Source of the DNA: Calditrichota bacterium
GTDB lineage: Bacteria > Calditrichota > Calditrichia > Calditrichales > Calditrichaceae
Length of the DNA stretch: 64,000 bases
Direction of reading: 5' to 3'
NCBI GenBank assembly: GCA_024278755.1
Contig: JAJRSO010000041.1
Location: 1-64,000 of the forward strand
The notes under the pieces were generated by a model. The model ran no database searches. It was given only the letters and a program-made list of their open reading frames with translations, and was not told the origin of the DNA. The position numbers and the translations under genes are program-made. The stretch's first letter is position 1; every line of letters begins with the position of its first letter. Below are positions 24,823-56,408 of this stretch, one piece after another.

Positions 24823-25443
24823 ATGAAACAGTACGTTCTTACATTTCTTTCATTACTTCTACCGGCGCTTGTTTCCTGTACCAACCCATTTACAACGCGC
24901 GCGGGTCAGGTAGAAAAACCCCAAACGGGGGAAGTGGAGTATTTAAGTCCTAATGAACCGGAGAACGTAATTAAGAATTTTATTCTCGCAATTAAAAACA
25001 AGAATCTTAATGAATATATGAACTGTTTTTCTCCTGCCGGACAGGAACGTTTTAGGTTTGAGCCGGAGCCGTTTTATTTAAATGAATTTTTAACCAGAGG
25101 CTGGACGCTTTCGGACGAGGAAGACTATTTTGACCGCTTACGGGCCTCCGTATTGCGCCTAAACTTTACATGGAGAGATGTGGATGAACCGGCGTTGCGT
25201 CCGGTTTTTATTTCGGCGCCCAACGATTCGGTGGAAAGCGATGTAACGCCCTATTCCATGTTAGTCACCTTTAATATCGATTCGGCCAAGACCTATGAAG
25301 GAACTGCATTTTTTAAACTCTACCACGACCAGGAAATGCAAAAATGGCATATCTACTACTGGGAAGACAAGGCGCTGGATGAAAATAAGGCGGACATTAC
25401 AATTACTGCATTAAAAGTGTTCTACAATAAAAAAAGTTTATAA
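24823..25443 (+). CDS. lipoprotein of unknown function, probable NTF2-like fold
   Basis: A 206-residue lipoprotein: signal MKQYVLTFLSLLLPALVSC with lipobox Cys19. After a linker, the domain begins with PENVIKNFILAIKNKNLNEY, the opening helix pattern of NTF2/SnoaL-like folds, and ends with FKLYHDQEMQKWHIYYWED, the usual last strands. No catalytic residues can be named. The stop overlaps the next ATG by one base (TAATG), so the two lipoproteins are translationally coupled and probably work together. The fold assignment is inference from secondary-structure pattern only. Confidence 0.75.
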   Translation: MKQYVLTFLSLLLPALVSCTNPFTTRAGQVEKPQTGEVEYLSPNEPENVIKNFILAIKNKNLNEYMNCFSPAGQERFRFEPEPFYLNEFLTRGWTLSDEEDYFDRLRASVLRLNFTWRDVDEPALRPVFISAPNDSVESDVTPYSMLVTFNIDSAKTYEGTAFFKLYHDQEMQKWHIYYWEDKALDENKADITITALKVFYNKKSL

Positions 25444-25985
25444 TGAAAAAACGGTACTTAAATTTATTATTTCTCTTGCCAATGTTTTTTTACAGCGGGT
25501 GCCAAAACCTGTTTGCACCCGGGTTAACCAATAAAGACCTAAATGCAAACCAGTTTTTAACCGAACAAAAAACGGCCGAAGACGTGCTTGTTAATCTTAG
25601 TTACGCCTATAATTTTAAAGATTCCCTGGTGTATGCGGATTTGCTGGACAGTAGTTTTAGATTTATATTTACGGACTTCACCAAAGACCCCGTTATACAG
25701 GATGACTGGGGACGGGATGTGGATATTAAAACCACGATGGGACTTTTTCGTCATTTTGAAACGGTTAATCTCGTTTGGGACGGCACCATTGAAGACCGTT
25801 TTGAAAATGATGAAAAAACCGAGAAAACCATCTGGAAATCCTTTAAATTAACGCTGGACGGCGGAATCGAGATATCCACTGTTTCGGGAGAAGCCATTTT
25901 TTCATTTAAAAAATTTCTGCTCAATCCCCCGGATACCGCTTCAATCTGGCGCATTACCAAGTGGATTGACCGACAGTCTTTTTAA
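25443..25985 (+). CDS. second lipoprotein, distant paralogue of its neighbour
   Basis: A 180-residue lipoprotein: signal MKKRYLNLLFLLPMFFYSGC with lipobox Cys20. The mature layout repeats that of the upstream gene: a helix with TAEDVLVNLSYAYNFKDSLVYADLLD, a central FRFIFTDF strand, and a closing strand with SIWRITKWIDRQSF. A common origin with the upstream lipoprotein is likely though identity is low. No function is known. The start shares a base with the previous stop, and the pdxJ-like gene follows after 17 bases. Confidence 0.75.
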   Translation: MKKRYLNLLFLLPMFFYSGCQNLFAPGLTNKDLNANQFLTEQKTAEDVLVNLSYAYNFKDSLVYADLLDSSFRFIFTDFTKDPVIQDDWGRDVDIKTTMGLFRHFETVNLVWDGTIEDRFENDEKTEKTIWKSFKLTLDGGIEISTVSGEAIFSFKKFLLNPPDTASIWRITKWIDRQSF

Positions 25986-26002: not shown

Positions 26003-26713
26003 ATGCCACGATTTGCTTTAGATATCGATACCATCGCTTTTATTCGAAATATGCTGGACGGAAAAAACCCGGATCCGGTTCATGCACTCGTGCTGGCCGA
26101 ACTGGGTGGCGCCGAAAGTATTGTTTGTTATTTACGGGATGATCTGAAAACGGTTAACGAGGCCGATGTACAGCTTTTGCGTCAGGTCGTAAAAAGCTAT
26201 CTCAATGTGCGCAGTAATATTACCGAAGATAATATTCGCACTCTGATGCGCATTAAGCCGGATATGATTACTTTTGTTGCACCGGGCGATGTTTCCAATG
26301 TCGAGGCGCAATCGGTTGATTTGAATATGTATTCGGAACAGGTGAAAGATTTTACGGCCGAATTCCGTTCCAGCGGTATTTTAAGTTCCGTCTTGCTCGA
26401 TCCGTCCCTGGCTCAGGTAAAAATGGCCGCGAAACTGTAATTTGATTATGTGGAATTTAATGCAGCCGGGTTGGCAGATGCGCCGGACATGAACGAAGAG
26501 CTTGAAATACTGGAAGAAATATCGGGACTTACCGTCGCCGCCAATAAACTGGGAATGGGTGTGAACATTAGCGGCGGGATTGGTTATGATAATATAAAAG
26601 ACATCAGCCGGATCGATTTTCTGGAAGATATCATTGCAGGAAGGCCGGTATTTACCAAGAGCCTCTCCATTGGTATAGAACAGGCAGTTCGAGACCTCAT
26701 TGCTTTAATCTGA
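26003..26713 (+). pseudogene. PdxJ-like protein without catalytic residues, interrupted by TAA
   Basis: The 237-codon frame aligns end to end with pyridoxine 5'-phosphate synthase PdxJ (NPDPVHALVLAELGGAESI, VQLLRQVVKSYLNV, late GMGVNISGGIGYDNIKDI and DIIAGRPVFT). A TAA at 26438-26440, where PdxJ usually has glycine, splits it after AAKL; FDYVEFNAAG continues in the same frame. The residues that make PdxJ an enzyme are also replaced: the histidine of NIDH is T10, the histidine of HLRED is Y43, the glutamate of NLEMA is R70, and the histidine of AGHG is G191. It is thus a diverged paralogue, probably not a vitamin B6 enzyme, that is now broken or read through. GGAG before ATG 26003 supports the start. 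Marked pseudogene because of the stop. Confidence 0.75.
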
Positions 26714-26723
26714 ATGGCGGCCA

Positions 26724-29195
26724 ATGAAAACTAAACTTTTTTTTATACTTGTTGCTGTCTGCTCGTGGCAGGTTTCCGCTCAAAACCGTACACCGCTTAC
26801 GGCCTTGTACAATTCTACAAACATAATCGAACAGAACGCTTCCGAAATAGGTCCATTGCAGTGGCAGGCGCAAAAAACAATGGGCTGGAAAAATATTTCG
26901 TTTCCCTTTTTCCAAACAAACAAGCGGCAAACGCGTCTGCGCGCCGCTTTTAAAATTTCCGCCGGACAAGACTCCATACCGCTGATACTTCGCGCGGGAG
27001 GGATTTCCGGTAATCTCTCTGTATATTTAAACGGCCACCTGATCCGCTTTCATCCTAACAGCACGGCTCCTTTTGATTTCCGGCTGCCCGCCGACGAGCT
27101 GAAAGAAGAAAACCTGCTACTGCTTGTTCTAAAAAGACCTTCAGACGCAACCATGGGATTTCCGCAATTCACCCGGATTTATACGGAACACGCATATCTC
27201 GGCTTAAAAGAACGCGTAAAACTATTTTCCGTCCGTAAAGAACCGCTTCGGAATTTCAGTATGAAAATTGAGAAACAAACAGCCGTAGCCGAACTTTATT
27301 ATTCCTACGATATCCAGTTGCCGCCATCTAAATACAAATATCGAATCGAAGAAAGTTTTATGCCAAAGGGTTCTAAACGAACACGTTTTGTATCCGGCGG
27401 CAGCAGACATATTGAAGGACGGCTAGCCGTAAAAAATGACAATCTCTGGTCCCCCGATAATCCGGTATTGTTGCAAACACGCATTAAAATTTTCGATAAA
27501 AAAAGCGCCCTGTTCGATAACATCTTTCAGTTTGGGTTGCGCAACCTTACCCTAAAATCAGACGGTATTTTTATTAATGGCCAGCCGACGCCGATAAACG
27601 GTATCAACTATCATAACGACGCCTGGCGTTTAAAAAACGGTAATTACCATAAAATCATATCGAACGATTTTAAAACGATTAAAGAAATGGGCTTTAACGC
27701 CGTTCGTCTGCCCCGTTACCTGCCGGACCGCACCATGCTTCAGGTGGCCGATTCCATCGGTTTGATGCTTTTTGGCGAATTGCCTATCTTGCGCTATCCG
27801 CCGCCCCTGTTTTTTAACAATGACCTTTTGGAACACGCAAAGGCGGCGATCAACAACCTGGCAGGCCCGAGTCTTTCTCACCCAAGCCTTACCGCTATTG
27901 GACTGGGACAGGAAATTTCCCTAAACGAAGCGGCCACGCAAAAGTTTATGTTTATCTTAAAAGATATCGTAAATATCAAATTAAAAGTACTCACTTACGT
28001 CTCCCCCTTTCCCGATGAAACGCTGCCTATTGAAAAAATAGCCGATTTTTATATGCTCGATATTCACCGGCCCTTACACCGCTATTCCGAGGAACATATC
28101 CCCCGACCGGATGGATTTCTTTTAGCAGGGAAAATCGGCTGTATTCGCAACGAACCGGCGGTAAAATGGGATACGGATCCGGTTTCCCAGGAACGGATTA
28201 CCTTTTTTAAACGGGAATTTGACGCGCTGTTTAGTACCTATGGCCTCAACGGCGGCTTTGTAGAAAGCTATATGGACTGGCATTTATCCCTGCCCTATCA
28301 ATTTTCCACTCCAAGTACAGACTCTGTTTTTATATATCCCAGCGGACTTTTAGACAGCAACCGTTATGCAAAACAATGGCTATTTGATTTTAAGCCTTTA
28401 TGGAGCCACAACACAACGCATCTGCTAAAAAGCCCGCCGGTAAAAAAGCGATCTAATTTTTATTCCCTTTTAGTAATTTTTAGCTCGATTATCTTTTTTG
28501 GTGTGTATCGGCGCATGCCGCGGTTAAACGAAAACATGCGCAAAGCCGTACGTCATCCCTACGGTTTTTTTGTAGATCTGCGCGAACGCCGTATCATCCC
28601 GCTTTTCAACTCGTTTTGGGTGGGCGGATACGCAGCGCTTTTACTAAGCAGTATCTTTAGTTCCGTTATTTTTTATCATCACGATTCTTTTATACTACAG
28701 GAATTTTCGGCTGTTTTGCTAAGTCCGTTCGGCTTGTACAAAGGGTTTTTAAGCATCAGCTCGAATCCGTTGTATCTGACGCTGATTATCTTTTCTCTTT
28801 TAATGCTGTATCCCATTTTAGTCAGTTTTATGTTAAAACTAACGGCCATTTTTATTGGTCTTCGCATCCGTCTGCGGCAGGCGCTCGCTGTCGGCTTATG
28901 GTCCGGCGTTCCGCTCTTGTTTTTACTGCCGGTAAGTATTTTCAGTTTTCAGCTATTAGGCTTCGACACATGGAATTTCTATCTGTTTATCCTTGTTTTT
29001 CTTTTTGTGATTTGGGCGCATTTCCGCATTATCAACGGAATTCGCGTTCTGTTTATTACAAAAGGCAGTAAAGTTTTAACGGCTATCCTCTTGTCTTATA
29101 CCATCCCTTTTATTATCTTTTGGGTTGTTTTTAAACCAACCGCTTACTGGCTGGAATACCTTTCTCTTTTAGTCAGATCCGGCAGTCTGTTTTAA
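26724..29195 (+). CDS. glycoside hydrolase family 2-like ectodomain fused to a multi-pass membrane domain
   Basis: The 823-residue protein has a Sec signal (cut near 19, VSAQ). Residues about 40-270 are beta-rich and resemble the sugar-binding and immunoglobulin-like domains of family 2 glycosidases (LSVYLNGHLI; LWSPDNPVLLQTRI). Then a TIM-barrel-like part starts with ING-INYHNDAW and TIKEMGFNAVRLPRYLPDR. Possible acid/base E is in GLGQEISL, and a possible nucleophile E in GFVESYMDW. From about 580 on there are about six membrane segments (LLVIFSSIIFFGV, ALLLSSIFSSVIFY, TLIIFSLLMLYPILVSFML and others) in a Yip1-like arrangement. The fusion of a periplasmic glycosidase-like head with such a membrane part is unfamiliar to me. 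Activity is unproven because the GH2 NE motif reads QE. Confidence 0.7.
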   Translation: MKTKLFFILVAVCSWQVSAQNRTPLTALYNSTNIIEQNASEIGPLQWQAQKTMGWKNISFPFFQTNKRQTRLRAAFKISAGQDSIPLILRAGGISGNLSVYLNGHLIRFHPNSTAPFDFRLPADELKEENLLLLVLKRPSDATMGFPQFTRIYTEHAYLGLKERVKLFSVRKEPLRNFSMKIEKQTAVAELYYSYDIQLPPSKYKYRIEESFMPKGSKRTRFVSGGSRHIEGRLAVKNDNLWSPDNPVLLQTRIKIFDKKSALFDNIFQFGLRNLTLKSDGIFINGQPTPINGINYHNDAWRLKNGNYHKIISNDFKTIKEMGFNAVRLPRYLPDRTMLQVADSIGLMLFGELPILRYPPPLFFNNDLLEHAKAAINNLAGPSLSHPSLTAIGLGQEISLNEAATQKFMFILKDIVNIKLKVLTYVSPFPDETLPIEKIADFYMLDIHRPLHRYSEEHIPRPDGFLLAGKIGCIRNEPAVKWDTDPVSQERITFFKREFDALFSTYGLNGGFVESYMDWHLSLPYQFSTPSTDSVFIYPSGLLDSNRYAKQWLFDFKPLWSHNTTHLLKSPPVKKRSNFYSLLVIFSSIIFFGVYRRMPRLNENMRKAVRHPYGFFVDLRERRIIPLFNSFWVGGYAALLLSSIFSSVIFYHHDSFILQEFSAVLLSPFGLYKGFLSISSNPLYLTLIIFSLLMLYPILVSFMLKLTAIFIGLRIRLRQALAVGLWSGVPLLFLLPVSIFSFQLLGFDTWNFYLFILVFLFVIWAHFRIINGIRVLFITKGSKVLTAILLSYTIPFIIFWVVFKPTAYWLEYLSLLVRSGSLF

Positions 29196-29215: not shown

Positions 29216-32200
29216 ATGTATCTTTCTAAATTAAAAATTATGGGTTTTAAGTCTTTTGCGACAAAAACCCAGATGGATTTCAATCCCGGAATGTCCTGTA
29301 TTATCGGCCCTAACGGCTCCGGTAAATCCAATATTGTGGATGCCATTCGCTGGGTACTGGGCGAGCAGCGTACCACCGCTCTGCGCAGCGATAAAATGGA
29401 AAATGTTATTTTTAACGGCACCCGCCAGCGTAAGCCGACGGGGATGGCCGAAGTTTCGATGACTATTGACAATACTAACAATATTTTAAAAACCGAATAT
29501 AGGCAGGTAGTTATAACCCGCCGTTTGTATAAATCCGGGGAAAGCCAGTATTTGCTCAACAACACGCCGGTACGCTTAAAAGATATCATCGATATATTGA
29601 TGGACAGCGGACTGGGCGCTAATTCATATTCAATTATCGAACTGAAGATGGTCGAGAGCATTCTTAGTGAGAACCGTGCCGAAAGGCGTCTTCTTTTCGA
29701 AGAAGCGGCCGGTGTAGTCAAATATAAAATCCGCCGTAAATCGGCCCTGCGAAAACTTGAAGCCACCCGCACCGATCTTACCCGTCTCGAAGATATCATC
29801 GGCGAAATTCAGAAAACGGTCAATTCGCTTTCGCGACAGGTAGGAAAAGCGCGTCGTTATCTGGCTTACACCGAAGAGTTAAAAAATACCGATGTGGAGC
29901 TTTCCCGTTTTCGCTATAACCGTTTGCTGGAAGAAATCCGCCCGCTTAAACTTCAACTCGAAGAAGTGAGTAAAGTAAAAGAAGCCAGCCACTCTCAAAT
30001 TACTATCGACGAAGCGTTATTAGAAGATTACAAGCGCGAGCTTATCCGGCGTGAACAGGAATTACAGGAACTAAATATAAAGCTTCAGGAAATCGACACC
30101 CGTATCGCCGAATTAAATAAAGATCAGGCCGTTTCCGAAACCAAAACGGAGGAAATGGGCAAAAACCGCCAGCGTTTTTTGCAGGATATCAGCGATTTAA
30201 AGCAAAAAATTAAAATTATGCTGGAAAATCTCGAAGAATTTAAGCAAGAATACGACGCCTTAAGCGAGCAAAAAGAAGCCGTTGAAAGCCGCTATAACAA
30301 AGTGGAAGCCGAACGGCGCTCGGAACTTGAAAAACTGCAGGACGAAAAGAAGGAAATCGACCGCCTTAATCAGACCTTCCGCAACCAGTTAAACGCCCTG
30401 TCTTCACAAAAAGAAGAATTCCGCCAAAAAAAATACCAGTTGGAGTTCAACAGCGAACAACTAAAAAGTCTGTAAGAAAAAATAACTCTGTACGAACTGG
30501 CCGCTAAAGATTTAAAAAAAGCGCGCCGGCAAATAAGCGAAAAGAAAGAATCGCTTAGCATCGAAGAAAAGAACATAAAAGAACAAATAGAAAAGCTGCG
30601 TACAGATCAGAAAGCCCTTAAAGAAACTCTGGCCGTTTCTTACAAGGAAAAGAATAAAGCGCTGGCCGAACTGGAAACCTTTCGTTCCCGCAAGCAGTTT
30701 TTTGAACAGATCATCGGCAGCTACGAAGGTCATTCCAAAAGCACTCAGTTTGTAATGAACCAAAAGGATCAGCTGCATGGAATTCATGGCACGGTTGCCG
30801 ACATTCTTTCGGTTAATGAGAAATATGCGCTTGCGCTTGAAATTATCTTAGGTGATACTTTAAATTTTATCCTTGTCGATTCGCTTGCGGACGCTAAAAA
30901 CGTTATTCGTCTGGTAAAAGAAGAACAAAAAGGACGTATTACGCTGATTCCCATGGATCAGTTAAAATCTATTCCCGAACAGCAGCCTGCGCATGCTGAT
31001 GTAAACTTTATCTCCGAACATATTCAATATGATTCTCAATATGCTCGTTTGCTGCACTTACTTGTGGGCGATGTGGCTTTGGCGGACGATTTGGAAGAAG
31101 CCGTACAGTTATCCAGGCAGTTTCCGTGGCTGCGGTTTATCACGCCGGAAGGTGAAACCGTTAATTTTAATCGCGAGATTGCCGGTGGCTCCAGTGCAAA
31201 AAAAGGCGCTTCGGTTATCGGCCGGAAAGATCAGCTTAAAAAATATTCCAAACTGATTCGCGAGGCAGAGCAGCAATTATCCGCTTTTCAGGAAAAGATT
31301 GAACTGCTTCAGGAAGAGGAAGTAGAAAACAATAAAAAAACAGAAATCCTCGCCGATTCTGCCCTGCATCTGCGCAACCAACTAATAGAACAGGACAAAC
31401 AGGAACATCAGTTATTGTACGAAGTGAATAAGCTTCAGGAAACCCGCGCCGAAGACGATGCTCAAAAAGTTCAGCTTACCAAAGATATTAGCGCTCTCAA
31501 GCTCTATTTAAAAGAACTCGAAGTGGTTGTGGAAAGCGGTCAGAAAAAGCTTAACGAAGTGGAAAAGGAAACAATTAAACGTACAAATGAATATGAAGAG
31601 AAATCCGAAACTCTGCAACTATTAACGGAAGAAGTGCAAAAAGCGCGGTTAAACGTGAGCAGCTTGCAAAACCAGTTAACCAATCGCAGAAATGATATCG
31701 AACGTACAAGCGCCGCCGTCCGGGAAATGAATGCCAGCATCCGTCGAAGAGAAAATGAAATTGAACAAATCGATAAATTAGTCGTAAAACTTAAAGATGG
31801 CTCCGAACAACGCATTGCCGAAAAGAGTAGAATATGGGACGATCGGGACAAACTGGATGCTCAAAAGAATCAATTTGAACAAGGTTTACAGGAAACCCGC
31901 GATAAAATTATCGATATTGAACAGCAAACCAAAACGTACCGAAAACAGCATGATTCCTCGCTGGAAACAAGCCGGACGCTGGAATTACAGATTAGCGAGA
32001 ACCGTGTAAAAGCTGAAAATCTGCGAGAATACGTTTTAAAAGAATATGCGCAGGATTTGGAAATCGGCATTCCATACGAAGATTTTGACGCCGATGAAGC
32101 CGAAACAAAAATAGAAACCCTGCGGGAACGCATTAAACATCTTGGCCCGGTTAACCCCCTCGCTGTTTCGGAATACGATAAAGAGAAAGAACGCCTGGAT

Positions 32201-32734
32201 TTTTTGAGTGGTCAGCGGGACGACCTTTTAAAGGCAGAGCAAATGCTTTTAGAAACAATCGACAAAATAAACAAAACGGCGCGCAGCCAGTTTTTGGAAA
32301 CTTACGAAGCCATTAAAATTAATTTCGAAAGGGTGTTTAAATCCTTCTTTGAAAATGGCGAAGGTACTCTTTCGATGGACGCCGGTGAAGATCCTCTCGA
32401 GGCAGATATAGAAATAAACGTCCGTACCAAAGGTAAGCGGCCGCAAACATTAACCCTGCTTTCGGGCGGAGAAAAAACACTTACGGCCATTTCCCTGTTA
32501 TTTGCAATTTATTTAGTAAAACCGAGTCCTTTTTGTATTTTGGATGAAGTGGACGCGCCGCTGGATGATGTAAATATCAGCCGCTTTACACAGGCGCTTA
32601 AGGATTTTTCGGAACATACCCAGTTTATTGTTATTACACACAACAAGCGTACAATGGAGGCCTCATCGACAATGTACGGGGTAACCATGGAAGAGGAAGG
32701 CGTTTCAAAATTAGTTTCAGTTAAATTTACATAA
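29216..32734 (+). pseudogene. smc: chromosome segregation ATPase SMC, interrupted by TAA at codon 420
   Basis: The 1173-codon frame gives a full-length SMC. It has an N-terminal ATPase with Walker A GPNGSGKSN (31-39) and Q-loop region, coiled coil (about 170-510), hinge (about 515-680, starting HGIHGTVADILSV), second coiled coil, and C-terminal signature LSGGEKTLTA (1082-1091) with Walker B FCILDEVDAP. SMC with ScpAB compacts and separates chromosomes. At 30473-30475 the first coiled coil reads CTG TAA GAA: an in-frame stop, with coiled-coil sequence (EKITLYELAAKDLKKARR) resuming at once in the same frame. The fragments are 419 and about 752 codons. The second has no start until M514, so the two could not rebuild a working SMC without readthrough. 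GGAG before ATG 29216 supports the start. Confidence 0.9.
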
Positions 32735-32743
32735 AGGCACCAT

Positions 32744-34123
32744 ATGAAAAAGTTATTTATTCTTTTAATCCTGCCCGCGCTGGTTTCCGCGCAACTGCAG
32801 TTTATTCCCATAAGTGCAGATTATGCCTCTTTTACATCCAACGACAGCAGTAGCTTTGTGCAGGTTTATCTATCGCTGTACCAGGGGCACCTAAAGTATC
32901 AGTACAGCGCCGACAGCATTTTATCCGCTTCGTTTACAACAACGCTAAAAATTACTCAGAACGATTCGGTCGTACGCAGTTTATCGCATAATTATCAGAA
33001 CACTATTAGCGACACGAATTCCTTTAAAAGCTATAACCAGTTTGTTGATATTTTTAATATCGAAATTGCACAAGGTACTTACAAAGCCCGGGTTCAGATA
33101 AAGGATAATTCTTCCAAATTGCAGGGTGAATATGTTTTTGATTTAAGCACTGTTTCACCGCAAAAAAAATTCTACTTTTCCGACATTGAGCTCTGCTCCA
33201 AGATCGAAACCAATAGCACAGAATCCATGTTTTCCAAAAACGGACTTAAAGTCATACCAAATCCAAAAGGGATTTATGACATTTTAAACCCGTTGTTCTA
33301 TTACTACATTGAGCTCAATAATCTGAACTATTCCGAAGGCGCAGACAACACCTACCTTTTTAGTTACACAATTACCAATGCCAACGGCGATACGGTTCGT
33401 AAAAAAGAGCCCAAACTTAAAAAAATTGCAGCTACAAATATGGTTGAAATCGGCGGAATGAATGTCATTGCCCTACCCAGAGGCGCCTACCTCTTTACGG
33501 CTAAAGCCGAAGATCCCAACGATGGTTCCGTTGATATTATTCAGAAAAAATTTACCGTTTATAAGCCGGATAAAAAGGGTGTTGCACGCCAAGGCGATAA
33601 ACTTCCGGAAATTGCCAATTACTATATCGGAATGAGTAAAGAACAGTTAAGAGAAGAATTTGCCGAAGCCAGATACATATCGAGTCGCCAGGAAATGAAC
33701 GTTTTTAAAAAGATTGAAAATGACCAGGTGGCTATGCAAAAATTTTTAACCAGTTTTTGGGTTCGTAAAGACAGAGAGAATCAGGTCCCTGTGGGTTCTT
33801 ATCGAAGAACTTATATGAAACGGGTTGAAACGGCAAATGCAAAATACCGTTCTATGGGAATCCCCGGATGGAAATCCGACCAGGGACGCGTATACATTTT
33901 ATATGGTGAACCGGATGAATATGAACGTAACCCTAATACGGTAGATATGCTTCCCCACGTCATCTGGTATTATCATAGCCTCGAAGGCGGAGCAAAATTT
34001 ATCTTTGCCGATGAAGAAGGATTCGGTCAATATCGTTTAATCCATTCCACGTACCGCAAGGAACTTCAGAATCCAAACTGGGAACAAATCATTTCCAAAA
34101 ACACGGGCACTTCACCGTATTAA
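32744..34123 (+). CDS. GWxTD domain-containing exported protein
   Basis: A 459-residue protein with a Sec signal (MKKLFILLILPALVSA). An N-terminal beta-rich half is followed by the GWxTD domain at about 315-459: FLTSFWVRKDRENQVPVGSY, then GIPGWKSDQGRVYILYGEPD (the name motif in the variant GWKSD), ending in a strand-rich tail with FIFADEEGFGQYRLIHSTYR. The domain is typical of the FCB superphylum, usually in exported or outer-membrane-associated proteins; its function is unknown. It follows smc by 9 bases and ends at a strong bidirectional terminator. Confidence 0.88.
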   Translation: MKKLFILLILPALVSAQLQFIPISADYASFTSNDSSSFVQVYLSLYQGHLKYQYSADSILSASFTTTLKITQNDSVVRSLSHNYQNTISDTNSFKSYNQFVDIFNIEIAQGTYKARVQIKDNSSKLQGEYVFDLSTVSPQKKFYFSDIELCSKIETNSTESMFSKNGLKVIPNPKGIYDILNPLFYYYIELNNLNYSEGADNTYLFSYTITNANGDTVRKKEPKLKKIAATNMVEIGGMNVIALPRGAYLFTAKAEDPNDGSVDIIQKKFTVYKPDKKGVARQGDKLPEIANYYIGMSKEQLREEFAEARYISSRQEMNVFKKIENDQVAMQKFLTSFWVRKDRENQVPVGSYRRTYMKRVETANAKYRSMGIPGWKSDQGRVYILYGEPDEYERNPNTVDMLPHVIWYYHSLEGGAKFIFADEEGFGQYRLIHSTYRKELQNPNWEQIISKNTGTSPY

Positions 34124-54992: not shown

Positions 54993-56408
54993 TTAACCGT
55001 TACTATCAACGACGGCGGCCATCATTTCGGCTTCGCAGACTAATTCACCTTTTACATAGGTTTTACCGGCCATTTTGAAGGTAGAACGCCGGTTTTTTAA
55101 CATAATCAATTCCATTACCAACTGATCGCCCGGTTGAACAATCTTACGGAATTTCACATTATCGATTCCCATAAAAAAGACCAGTTTATTGCCCACATCC
55201 ACCTGCTCGTTCAGTAGCAGAATGCCGCCCACCTGAGCCATTGCCTCTACAATTAAAACTCCGGGCATAACCGGTTTTTGTGGAAAATGTCCCTCAAAAA
55301 AGGGTTCGTTGGTGGTAACATTTTTAATCCCCACCGCTTTCTTTTCCGGTTCCAGCTCAATGATTGAGTCGACCAGCAGGAATGGATAGCGGTGCGGCAG
55401 AATCTTTTTAATGGCGTTAATATCAAAAACAACGCCTTTTTTACTGACATCCTGATATTTACGGGTCAGCGTTTGTTTTTTATAATAATTACGTAACAAT
55501 CGGGCAAATTCGATATTGTTTTGATGTCCCGGTCGTGCCGCCAGAATTTGGGCTTTTATATTGACGCCGGCCAGGGCCAAGTCGCCGAGCAAATCAAGTA
55601 ATTTATGACGGCTTGGTTCATTACGAAAACGCAGAGTTTTATTGTTTAAAATACCGTTGGTCCCCAATTCCACATTTTAATCGATATCAAACATCTTTTT
55701 AAGACGCTGCATATCGTTATCATCCAAATCCCGATCCACGATAACAACGGCCGAATCCAAATCGCCGCCCTTTATCAGGCCCTGTTCGGCCAGCATCTCC
55801 ACTTCATGCAAGAAACAGAAGGTACGGGCCGGTGCAAATTCGGAAATAAATTCTTTTTCCATAGAAAACAGGCCGGAATGCTGGCTGCCAAGCGCTGGGT
55901 TTTTATAATCAACCATTACCGTTAAACGATAATCGTCGGTGGGAAGCGCTGCGTATTCGATTCCACGCTGTTCGTCCGAAAAGCCCAACGGTTCTTCCAC
56001 AACAAGATACTCTTTGATGGCATCCTGTTCTTCAATGCCGGCCTCAAGCAGACGGTTTACAAAGGGCATAGCCGAGCCATCACCGATAGGCGGCTCGTTT
56101 CCTTCCAGTTCTATCAATACATTGTCAAGTTCCAGCCCGGCAAGGGCGGCGAGAACATGTTCGACCGTATGCACTTCCACCCCGTCTTTTTTAAGCGTTG
56201 TACCCCGCAGGCTTTCCAGTTCATGATCTTGCACAACGTAATCTACAAGGGCGGGAATTGCCGGAGCATTCTCAACATCGGTGCGTAAAAACCGGAATCC
56301 GAAATTTTCCGCTGCCGGTTTAAACGTTATTTTAGTCTTGTTTCCGGTATGCAGTCCGCGGCCTTCAAAAGAGACTTCTTTTTTAATCGTTCGCTGTTTC
56401 TTGTCCAT
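54993..56408 (-). pseudogene. lpxC-fabZ: bifunctional LpxC deacetylase / FabZ dehydratase, interrupted by TAA
   Basis: A single frame of 472 codons covers LpxC (lipid A second step, zinc deacetylase) and FabZ (hydroxyacyl-ACP dehydratase), the fusion known from Bacteroidetes and relatives. LpxC zinc ligands are H84 in VHTVEHVLAALAG and, past the break, H268/D272 in SRHKLLDLLGDLALAG. FabZ follows: ILPHRYPFLLVD with catalytic His and PGVLIVEAMAQVGG with catalytic Glu. TAA at 55677-55679 reads GAT TAA AAT between FDID and NVELGTNGILNN, so the first zinc ligand is separated from the others. The downstream piece could restart at GTG 55673, giving the LpxC tail plus FabZ, but neither part could make intact LpxC. 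Start ATG 56408 is inside the end of lpxD; ATG 56435 is an alternative. Confidence 0.9.

Follow-up and report, generated by a model that had tools for sequence, protein, structure and literature searches.

A single-copy membrane protein with a pseudo-GH2 head and a distantly Yip1-like domain in Calditrichota and other bacterial phyla

Results

Overall architecture and main reading

The window, a 64,000-nucleotide stretch of Calditrichota bacterium DNA (contig JAJRSO010000041.1; host genome size, 3.94 Mb), contains an intact open reading frame with an ATG start that encodes a protein of 823 amino acids, in which a signal peptide is followed by a GH2-like head (beta-sandwich, Ig-like domain and complete TIM barrel) and by six membrane helices (Table 1). 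This fusion probably has a housekeeping role at the cell envelope that is non-enzymatic and so far unrecognised, since it has been kept as a single-copy gene across at least six phyla. For the narrower proposal of an ancient single-copy inner-membrane pseudoglycosidase working as a non-catalytic binding or assembly module, we put the chances at about even.

The domain composition proposed in the initial annotation from the letters alone (signal peptide, sugar-binding-like and TIM-barrel-like domains, then about six membrane spans) was borne out by Pfam, profile searches, AlphaFold2 and Foldseek; the predicted structure contained both the barrel and the membrane fold, with exactly six membrane helices, and all the full-length relatives examined share this order. 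A chance fusion or a mis-assembly was considered and rejected: over 100 genomes have an open frame of this size, and each full-length member sampled was confirmed to carry both halves.

Table 1. Features of the fusion gene and its neighbours in the window.
Feature	Coordinates	Strand	Basis or remark
Lipoprotein LP1, invariant Cys19 in CTNPF	24823..25443	+	Alignment
Lipoprotein LP2, invariant Cys20, homologous to LP1	25443..25985	+	Alignment
pdxJ	26003..26713	+	One in-frame TAA at 26438-26440
Pseudo-GH2 / Yip1-like fusion protein, 823 aa	26724..29195	+	Whole ORF with stop
Signal peptide, about residues 1-20	26724..26783	+	MKTKLFFILVAVCSWQVSAQ by eye; model helix 2-20
GH2 N-terminal (sugar-binding-like) beta-sandwich, about residues 39-175	26838..27248	+	Model strands
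GH2 Ig-like domain, about residues 176-275	27249..27548	+	PF00703; model strands
GH2-like TIM barrel, about residues 276-540	27549..28343	+	PF02836, E 6.4e-9; DSSP of model
Glu397, acid/base position, end of strand 4	27912..27914	+	Alignment with six ordinary GH2 proteins
Lys470 at GH2 nucleophile position, end of strand 7	28131..28133	+	Alignment with ordinary GH2 proteins
TM1, residues 579-597, predicted to run from periplasm to cytoplasm	28458..28514	+	Model; loop charge
Basic, probably amphipathic, predicted cytosolic segment, residues 598-626 (RKAVRHPYGFFVDLRERR)	28515..28601	+	Conservation; charge
Yip1-like domain, TM2-TM6, residues 627-802	28602..29129	+	Model; Yip1 profile comparison; conservation
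smc, conserved next gene in Calditrichota	29216..32734	+	One in-frame TAA at 30473-30475
GWxTD-domain protein, frequent next gene after smc	32744..34123	+	PF20094, E 2.7e-14

The head is predicted to have a GH2 fold

The Pfam model for the GH2 TIM barrel matched residues 277-358 above its curated cut-off, and weaker matches, both below cut-off, were obtained for the GH2 Ig-like domain (E 0.013) and the GH2 sugar-binding domain (E 0.18); in other family members the beta-sandwich domain is recognised by PF02837 or PF22666. With a profile of the orthologues, matches were obtained to over 100 GH2 chains of solved structure, the best at E 1.4e-40. The AlphaFold2 model, built from 32 sequences (pLDDT 85.2, pTM 0.85), displayed a signal helix, two beta domains, an eight-stranded barrel (strands 1-8 at residues 291, 326, 348, 389, 423, 442, 465 and 510, according to DSSP) and six long helices, and its top Foldseek matches in the PDB were GH2 beta-glucuronidases (8dhe, E 1.3e-26), with beta-galactosidases also found. 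Judging from the model and its GH2 sequence similarity, the head has the fold of GH2 enzymes such as 8dhe, 3fn9 and 5uj6, and its beta-sandwich, Ig-like domain and TIM barrel follow one another as they do in these enzymes; the head differs from them in being joined to a six-helix membrane region.

The GH2 catalytic pair is missing throughout the family

Catalysis in GH2 enzymes depends on a pair of glutamates, of which one follows an Asn where strand 4 ends and the other lies where strand 7 ends. As controls, six ordinary GH2 proteins encoded in Calditrichota genomes were aligned with the fusion family, and all six displayed the Asn-Glu motif and the second Glu. In contrast to ordinary GH2 enzymes, no member of the fusion family (n = 0/87) had both catalytic glutamates in the alignment: the acid/base Glu was retained in 23 members, the Asn-Glu motif in four, and Glu at the nucleophile column in a single one, strand 7 having been aligned by sequence within a divergent region. 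In the window protein the acid/base motif reads Gln396-Glu397, as had been noticed before, and Lys470 occupies the nucleophile position; the model strands at 389-398 and 465-471 agree with this alignment. The head is thus very unlikely, on its sequence, to be a working GH2 enzyme, because the catalytic pair is absent from all 87 members.

The earlier suggestion of a membrane-bound glycan enzyme is not supported, the nucleophile having been lost as well. A membrane-bound glycosidase with an altered mechanism is very improbable: the barrel is complete in the model and the 20 members sampled from families f1-f3 all retain Glu397 (as do a few genomes elsewhere), but most other members have lost the acid/base Glu, and the nucleophile position is taken by Lys, Asn, Gly, Arg and other residues. 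The Glu conserved in families f1-f3 could mean residual chemistry there, or binding only.

The membrane part is distantly related to Yip1

The AlphaFold2 model placed the membrane helices at residues 579-597, 627-651, 682-711, 729-745, 750-777 and 781-802, and the membrane part modelled alone reached a pLDDT of 90; a fold search with the membrane domain in the PDB gave nothing below E 0.9, so that it resembles no solved structure there. Residues 598-626 form the best-conserved stretch of the whole protein (mean column identity, 0.53), and Trp726, Trp764 and Arg768 of the membrane domain are almost or fully invariant. Mean net charges (n = 87) were +3.9 after TM1, +2.2 in the third loop and +3.2 in the fifth, and -0.5, +0.2, 0.0 and -0.2 at the head end, in the second and fourth loops and at the C-terminus, respectively. 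From this alternation of loop charges we infer that the head and the C-terminus lie outside, and residues 598-626 inside.

Yip1 proteins have a cytosolic N-terminus, five helices and a lumenal C-terminus (PMC6682643). The predicted topology of TM2-TM6 fits this description in the model and by charge, with five helices, a cytosolic N-terminal part and the C-terminus outside; taken with the published topology, the charges therefore suggest for TM1 the role of restoring the usual Yip1 arrangement behind an exported head. The Yip1-like part would comprise, as a distant relative, the last five helices and the basic segment before them; like members of the Yip1 family PF04893 (YIPF, bacterial YknW), it has five membrane helices behind a basic segment that contains P..F.

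The Pfam model PF04893 matched residues 630-802 of the window protein with E 0.011 and 16.1 bits, against a gathering cut-off of 28.6; 12 of the 32 orthologues matched at E up to 0.1 (best, 7e-6), and in a genome search with this model the fusion family reached at most 28.2 bits, again below the cut-off. An hhalign comparison with a profile of stand-alone Calditrichota Yip1 proteins was colinear over 180 columns (E 9.4e-5), with a probability of only 59. The relation to Yip1 noted in the initial annotation is therefore likely on the sequence comparisons, though distant. Apart from its score, the fusion differs from PF04893 proteins in that its membrane domain sits behind a pseudoenzyme and an added TM1, and separate, clear Yip1 proteins are also encoded in Calditrichota genomes. 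These stand-alone proteins are near-universal in the phylum, many having a charged N-terminal extension (e.g. G000 contig C79:42634-43251).

Two alternatives bear on the membrane part. The Yip1-like helices might form the path of a transporter or lipid-linked-glycan translocase, with the head accepting or orienting a periplasmic substrate, for which the invariant Arg768 and the Trp residues, as well as the similarity of the Yip1 clan to transporters discussed in PMC6682643, could be invoked; five or six helices only, no match to solved transporters and no transport partner genes nearby leave this a rather small chance. In the second, the protein would be a glycan-sensing receptor, whose dead head binds a periplasmic glycan while TM1 signals and the basic segment recruits a cytosolic partner. 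The segment concerned is the most conserved of the protein, GH2 heads are sugar-binding by ancestry, and a receptor role for prokaryotic Yip1 proteins has been speculated upon (PMC6682643); yet no output domain, regulator or kinase recurs alongside, and the neighbours are housekeeping genes. Of the two functions first envisaged, enzyme or receptor, only the receptor keeps some standing, as an unlikely reading.

Distribution and descent

Genomes were searched for the family with a profile of the membrane part. One copy was found in 36 of 40 Calditrichota genomes, the four genomes without it being 62 to 88% complete. Outside this phylum, 14 of about 345 genomes carried the fusion gene, and searches around five of these 14 identified it in five further phylum-level groups (8/9, 5/5, 12/13, 51/82 and 28/39 genomes), always as a single copy per genome except where a frame or contig break divides the gene. 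The full-length family profile covered all the loci outside Calditrichota that were analysed in detail but one, which is cut by a contig end.

In a tree built from 85 members, seven changes of group label were required, the least possible; it is a quick tree with long branches, and the details within it are unsure. Because it follows phylum with the minimum of label changes, ancient vertical inheritance is the simplest reading of these sequences.

A single-sequence scan of genome contigs revealed no relative, short exact patterns being unsuited to so divergent a family. An alignment query of genome contigs found 17, of which 15 were labelled Calditrichota, Calditrichia, Calditrichaceae, Caldithrix or similar, one Caldisericaceae and one unclassified bacterium. 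In two genomes of another group (L124 and L125) the fusion proteins have a lipobox-like signal at their start (FCLSC and FYSFSC, by eye), and their heads may be lipid-anchored.

Gene neighbourhood

The gene order in the window is ligA (divergent), LP1, LP2, pdxJ, the fusion gene, smc and the gene for the GWxTD protein. The gaps from LP1 to the GWxTD gene are of at most about 20 bases, which suggests that this stretch is an operon. In Calditrichota, smc lies directly 3' of the fusion gene in all evaluable loci (n = 33/33); it is also the next gene in 11 of 20 loci of one other phylum-level group and in three single lineages, but never in the remaining four groups, which have IMP dehydrogenase, rpiB or other genes in its place. 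Further neighbours include rpiB and genes for a phosphoribosyltransferase, NUDIX, FAD synthetase, arginase and a Na+/H+ antiporter. In one group (L153-L167 and L126) the IMP dehydrogenase gene guaB directly follows the fusion gene in 16 of 16 cases, and in L124 and L125 the GWxTD gene does so without smc.

A role as a partner of SMC, tying chromosome organisation to the envelope, would accord with the constant position of smc in Calditrichota and its recurrence in other lineages. Since the neighbour changes between phyla, smc being absent from this position in four groups, and the head is predicted to be periplasmic, we find such a role hardly credible.

Among the loci examined, no recurring sugar-use cluster was present beside the fusion gene. 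As the neighbours are mostly housekeeping genes, they favour a housekeeping envelope role over carbohydrate use, although a function cannot be read from neighbours alone.

The two lipoproteins upstream, whose invariant cysteines are those of the lipobox, are homologous to each other (hhalign E 3.8e-13), and LP1 belongs to no family in Pfam. LP1 was detected in 37 and LP2 in 34 of the 40 Calditrichota genomes. The two lie ahead of pdxJ and the fusion gene in families f1-f3, whereas in families f4-f6 the LP1-LP2 pair has moved as a unit, for example about 58 kb away (G025) or to another contig (G026). LP1 and LP2 are thus a separable pair, neighbours but not obligate partners of the fusion gene. 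Their co-occurrence with it across Calditrichota, proposed as a check in the initial annotation, does hold, since lipoprotein and fusion genes alike belong to the core set of the phylum, but adjacency is confined to families f1-f3; the argument drawn from co-transcribed lipoproteins consequently carries no weight for a partnership, the pair sitting elsewhere in families f4-f6.

Proposed function

The proposal of a non-catalytic binding or assembly module can be outlined as follows. The signal peptide would export the GH2-fold head to the periplasm, and TM1 would turn the chain so that the Yip1-like domain keeps its usual topology. The head, which presumably no longer cuts glycans, would bind a glycan or a protein on its surface, and the fused membrane domain would let it assemble or modulate another inner-membrane component of the envelope.

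Two systems offer analogies. In 4F2hc and rBAT, the ectodomains resemble alpha-glucosidases, have no proven activity and contribute to transporter stability and targeting (PMC8537225). YknW, a Yip1 protein of Bacillus, modulates the assembly of the ABC exporter YknXYZ (PMC4887032). Although both are analogies only, they make an assembly role reasonable. Like the fusion, 4F2hc and rBAT have a membrane-tethered ectodomain of glycosidase fold whose active site is missing or unproven, which in their case aids the transporter; unlike it, they are GH13 rather than GH2 proteins, metazoan, with one membrane helix and a separate partner chain, so that the likeness is one of mode and not of descent. A fuller version of the proposal, to which we give somewhat less than an even chance, sees in the fusion a core family derived from a common ancestor of several phyla around Calditrichota and inherited vertically, which would act as a non-catalytic envelope assembly subunit or receptor, analogous to 4F2hc and rBAT.

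Prior description and significance

The earlier statement that no enzyme with this order had been described agrees with our searches: none of the curated Pfam and NCBIfam models found describes a GH2-Yip1 combination, and no description of the fusion was found in the literature searched for GWxTD, for inactive membrane glycoside hydrolases and for Yip1 together with glycoside hydrolase. The main text of the Caldithrix abyssi genome paper makes no mention of GH2 or Yip1. The domains are of known kinds; what was unexpected is the breadth of a widely conserved, single-copy pseudoglycosidase membrane family that has no curated model. Curated models label the head as GH2 or beta-galactosidase only, and annotation is thus likely to count the protein as a carbohydrate enzyme in these phyla. 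A single-copy membrane pseudoenzyme in at least six phyla points to a common envelope function that has gone unrecognised. The function of the Yip1-like domain was left open in a 2019 review (PMC6682643), and the fusion offers a bacterial route into it.

In-frame stops in other genes of the window

Besides pdxJ and smc (Table 1), a third gene, at about position 55677 on the minus strand and presumably lpxC-fabZ-like from its motifs, is interrupted by a single in-frame TAA; all three are otherwise intact. These stops may reflect sequencing or assembly error, DNA damage or real decay. No second copy of pdxJ was found in the genome. The position of the TAA is occupied by Glu in all 16 relatives compared for pdxJ, and by Glu in many relatives of smc.
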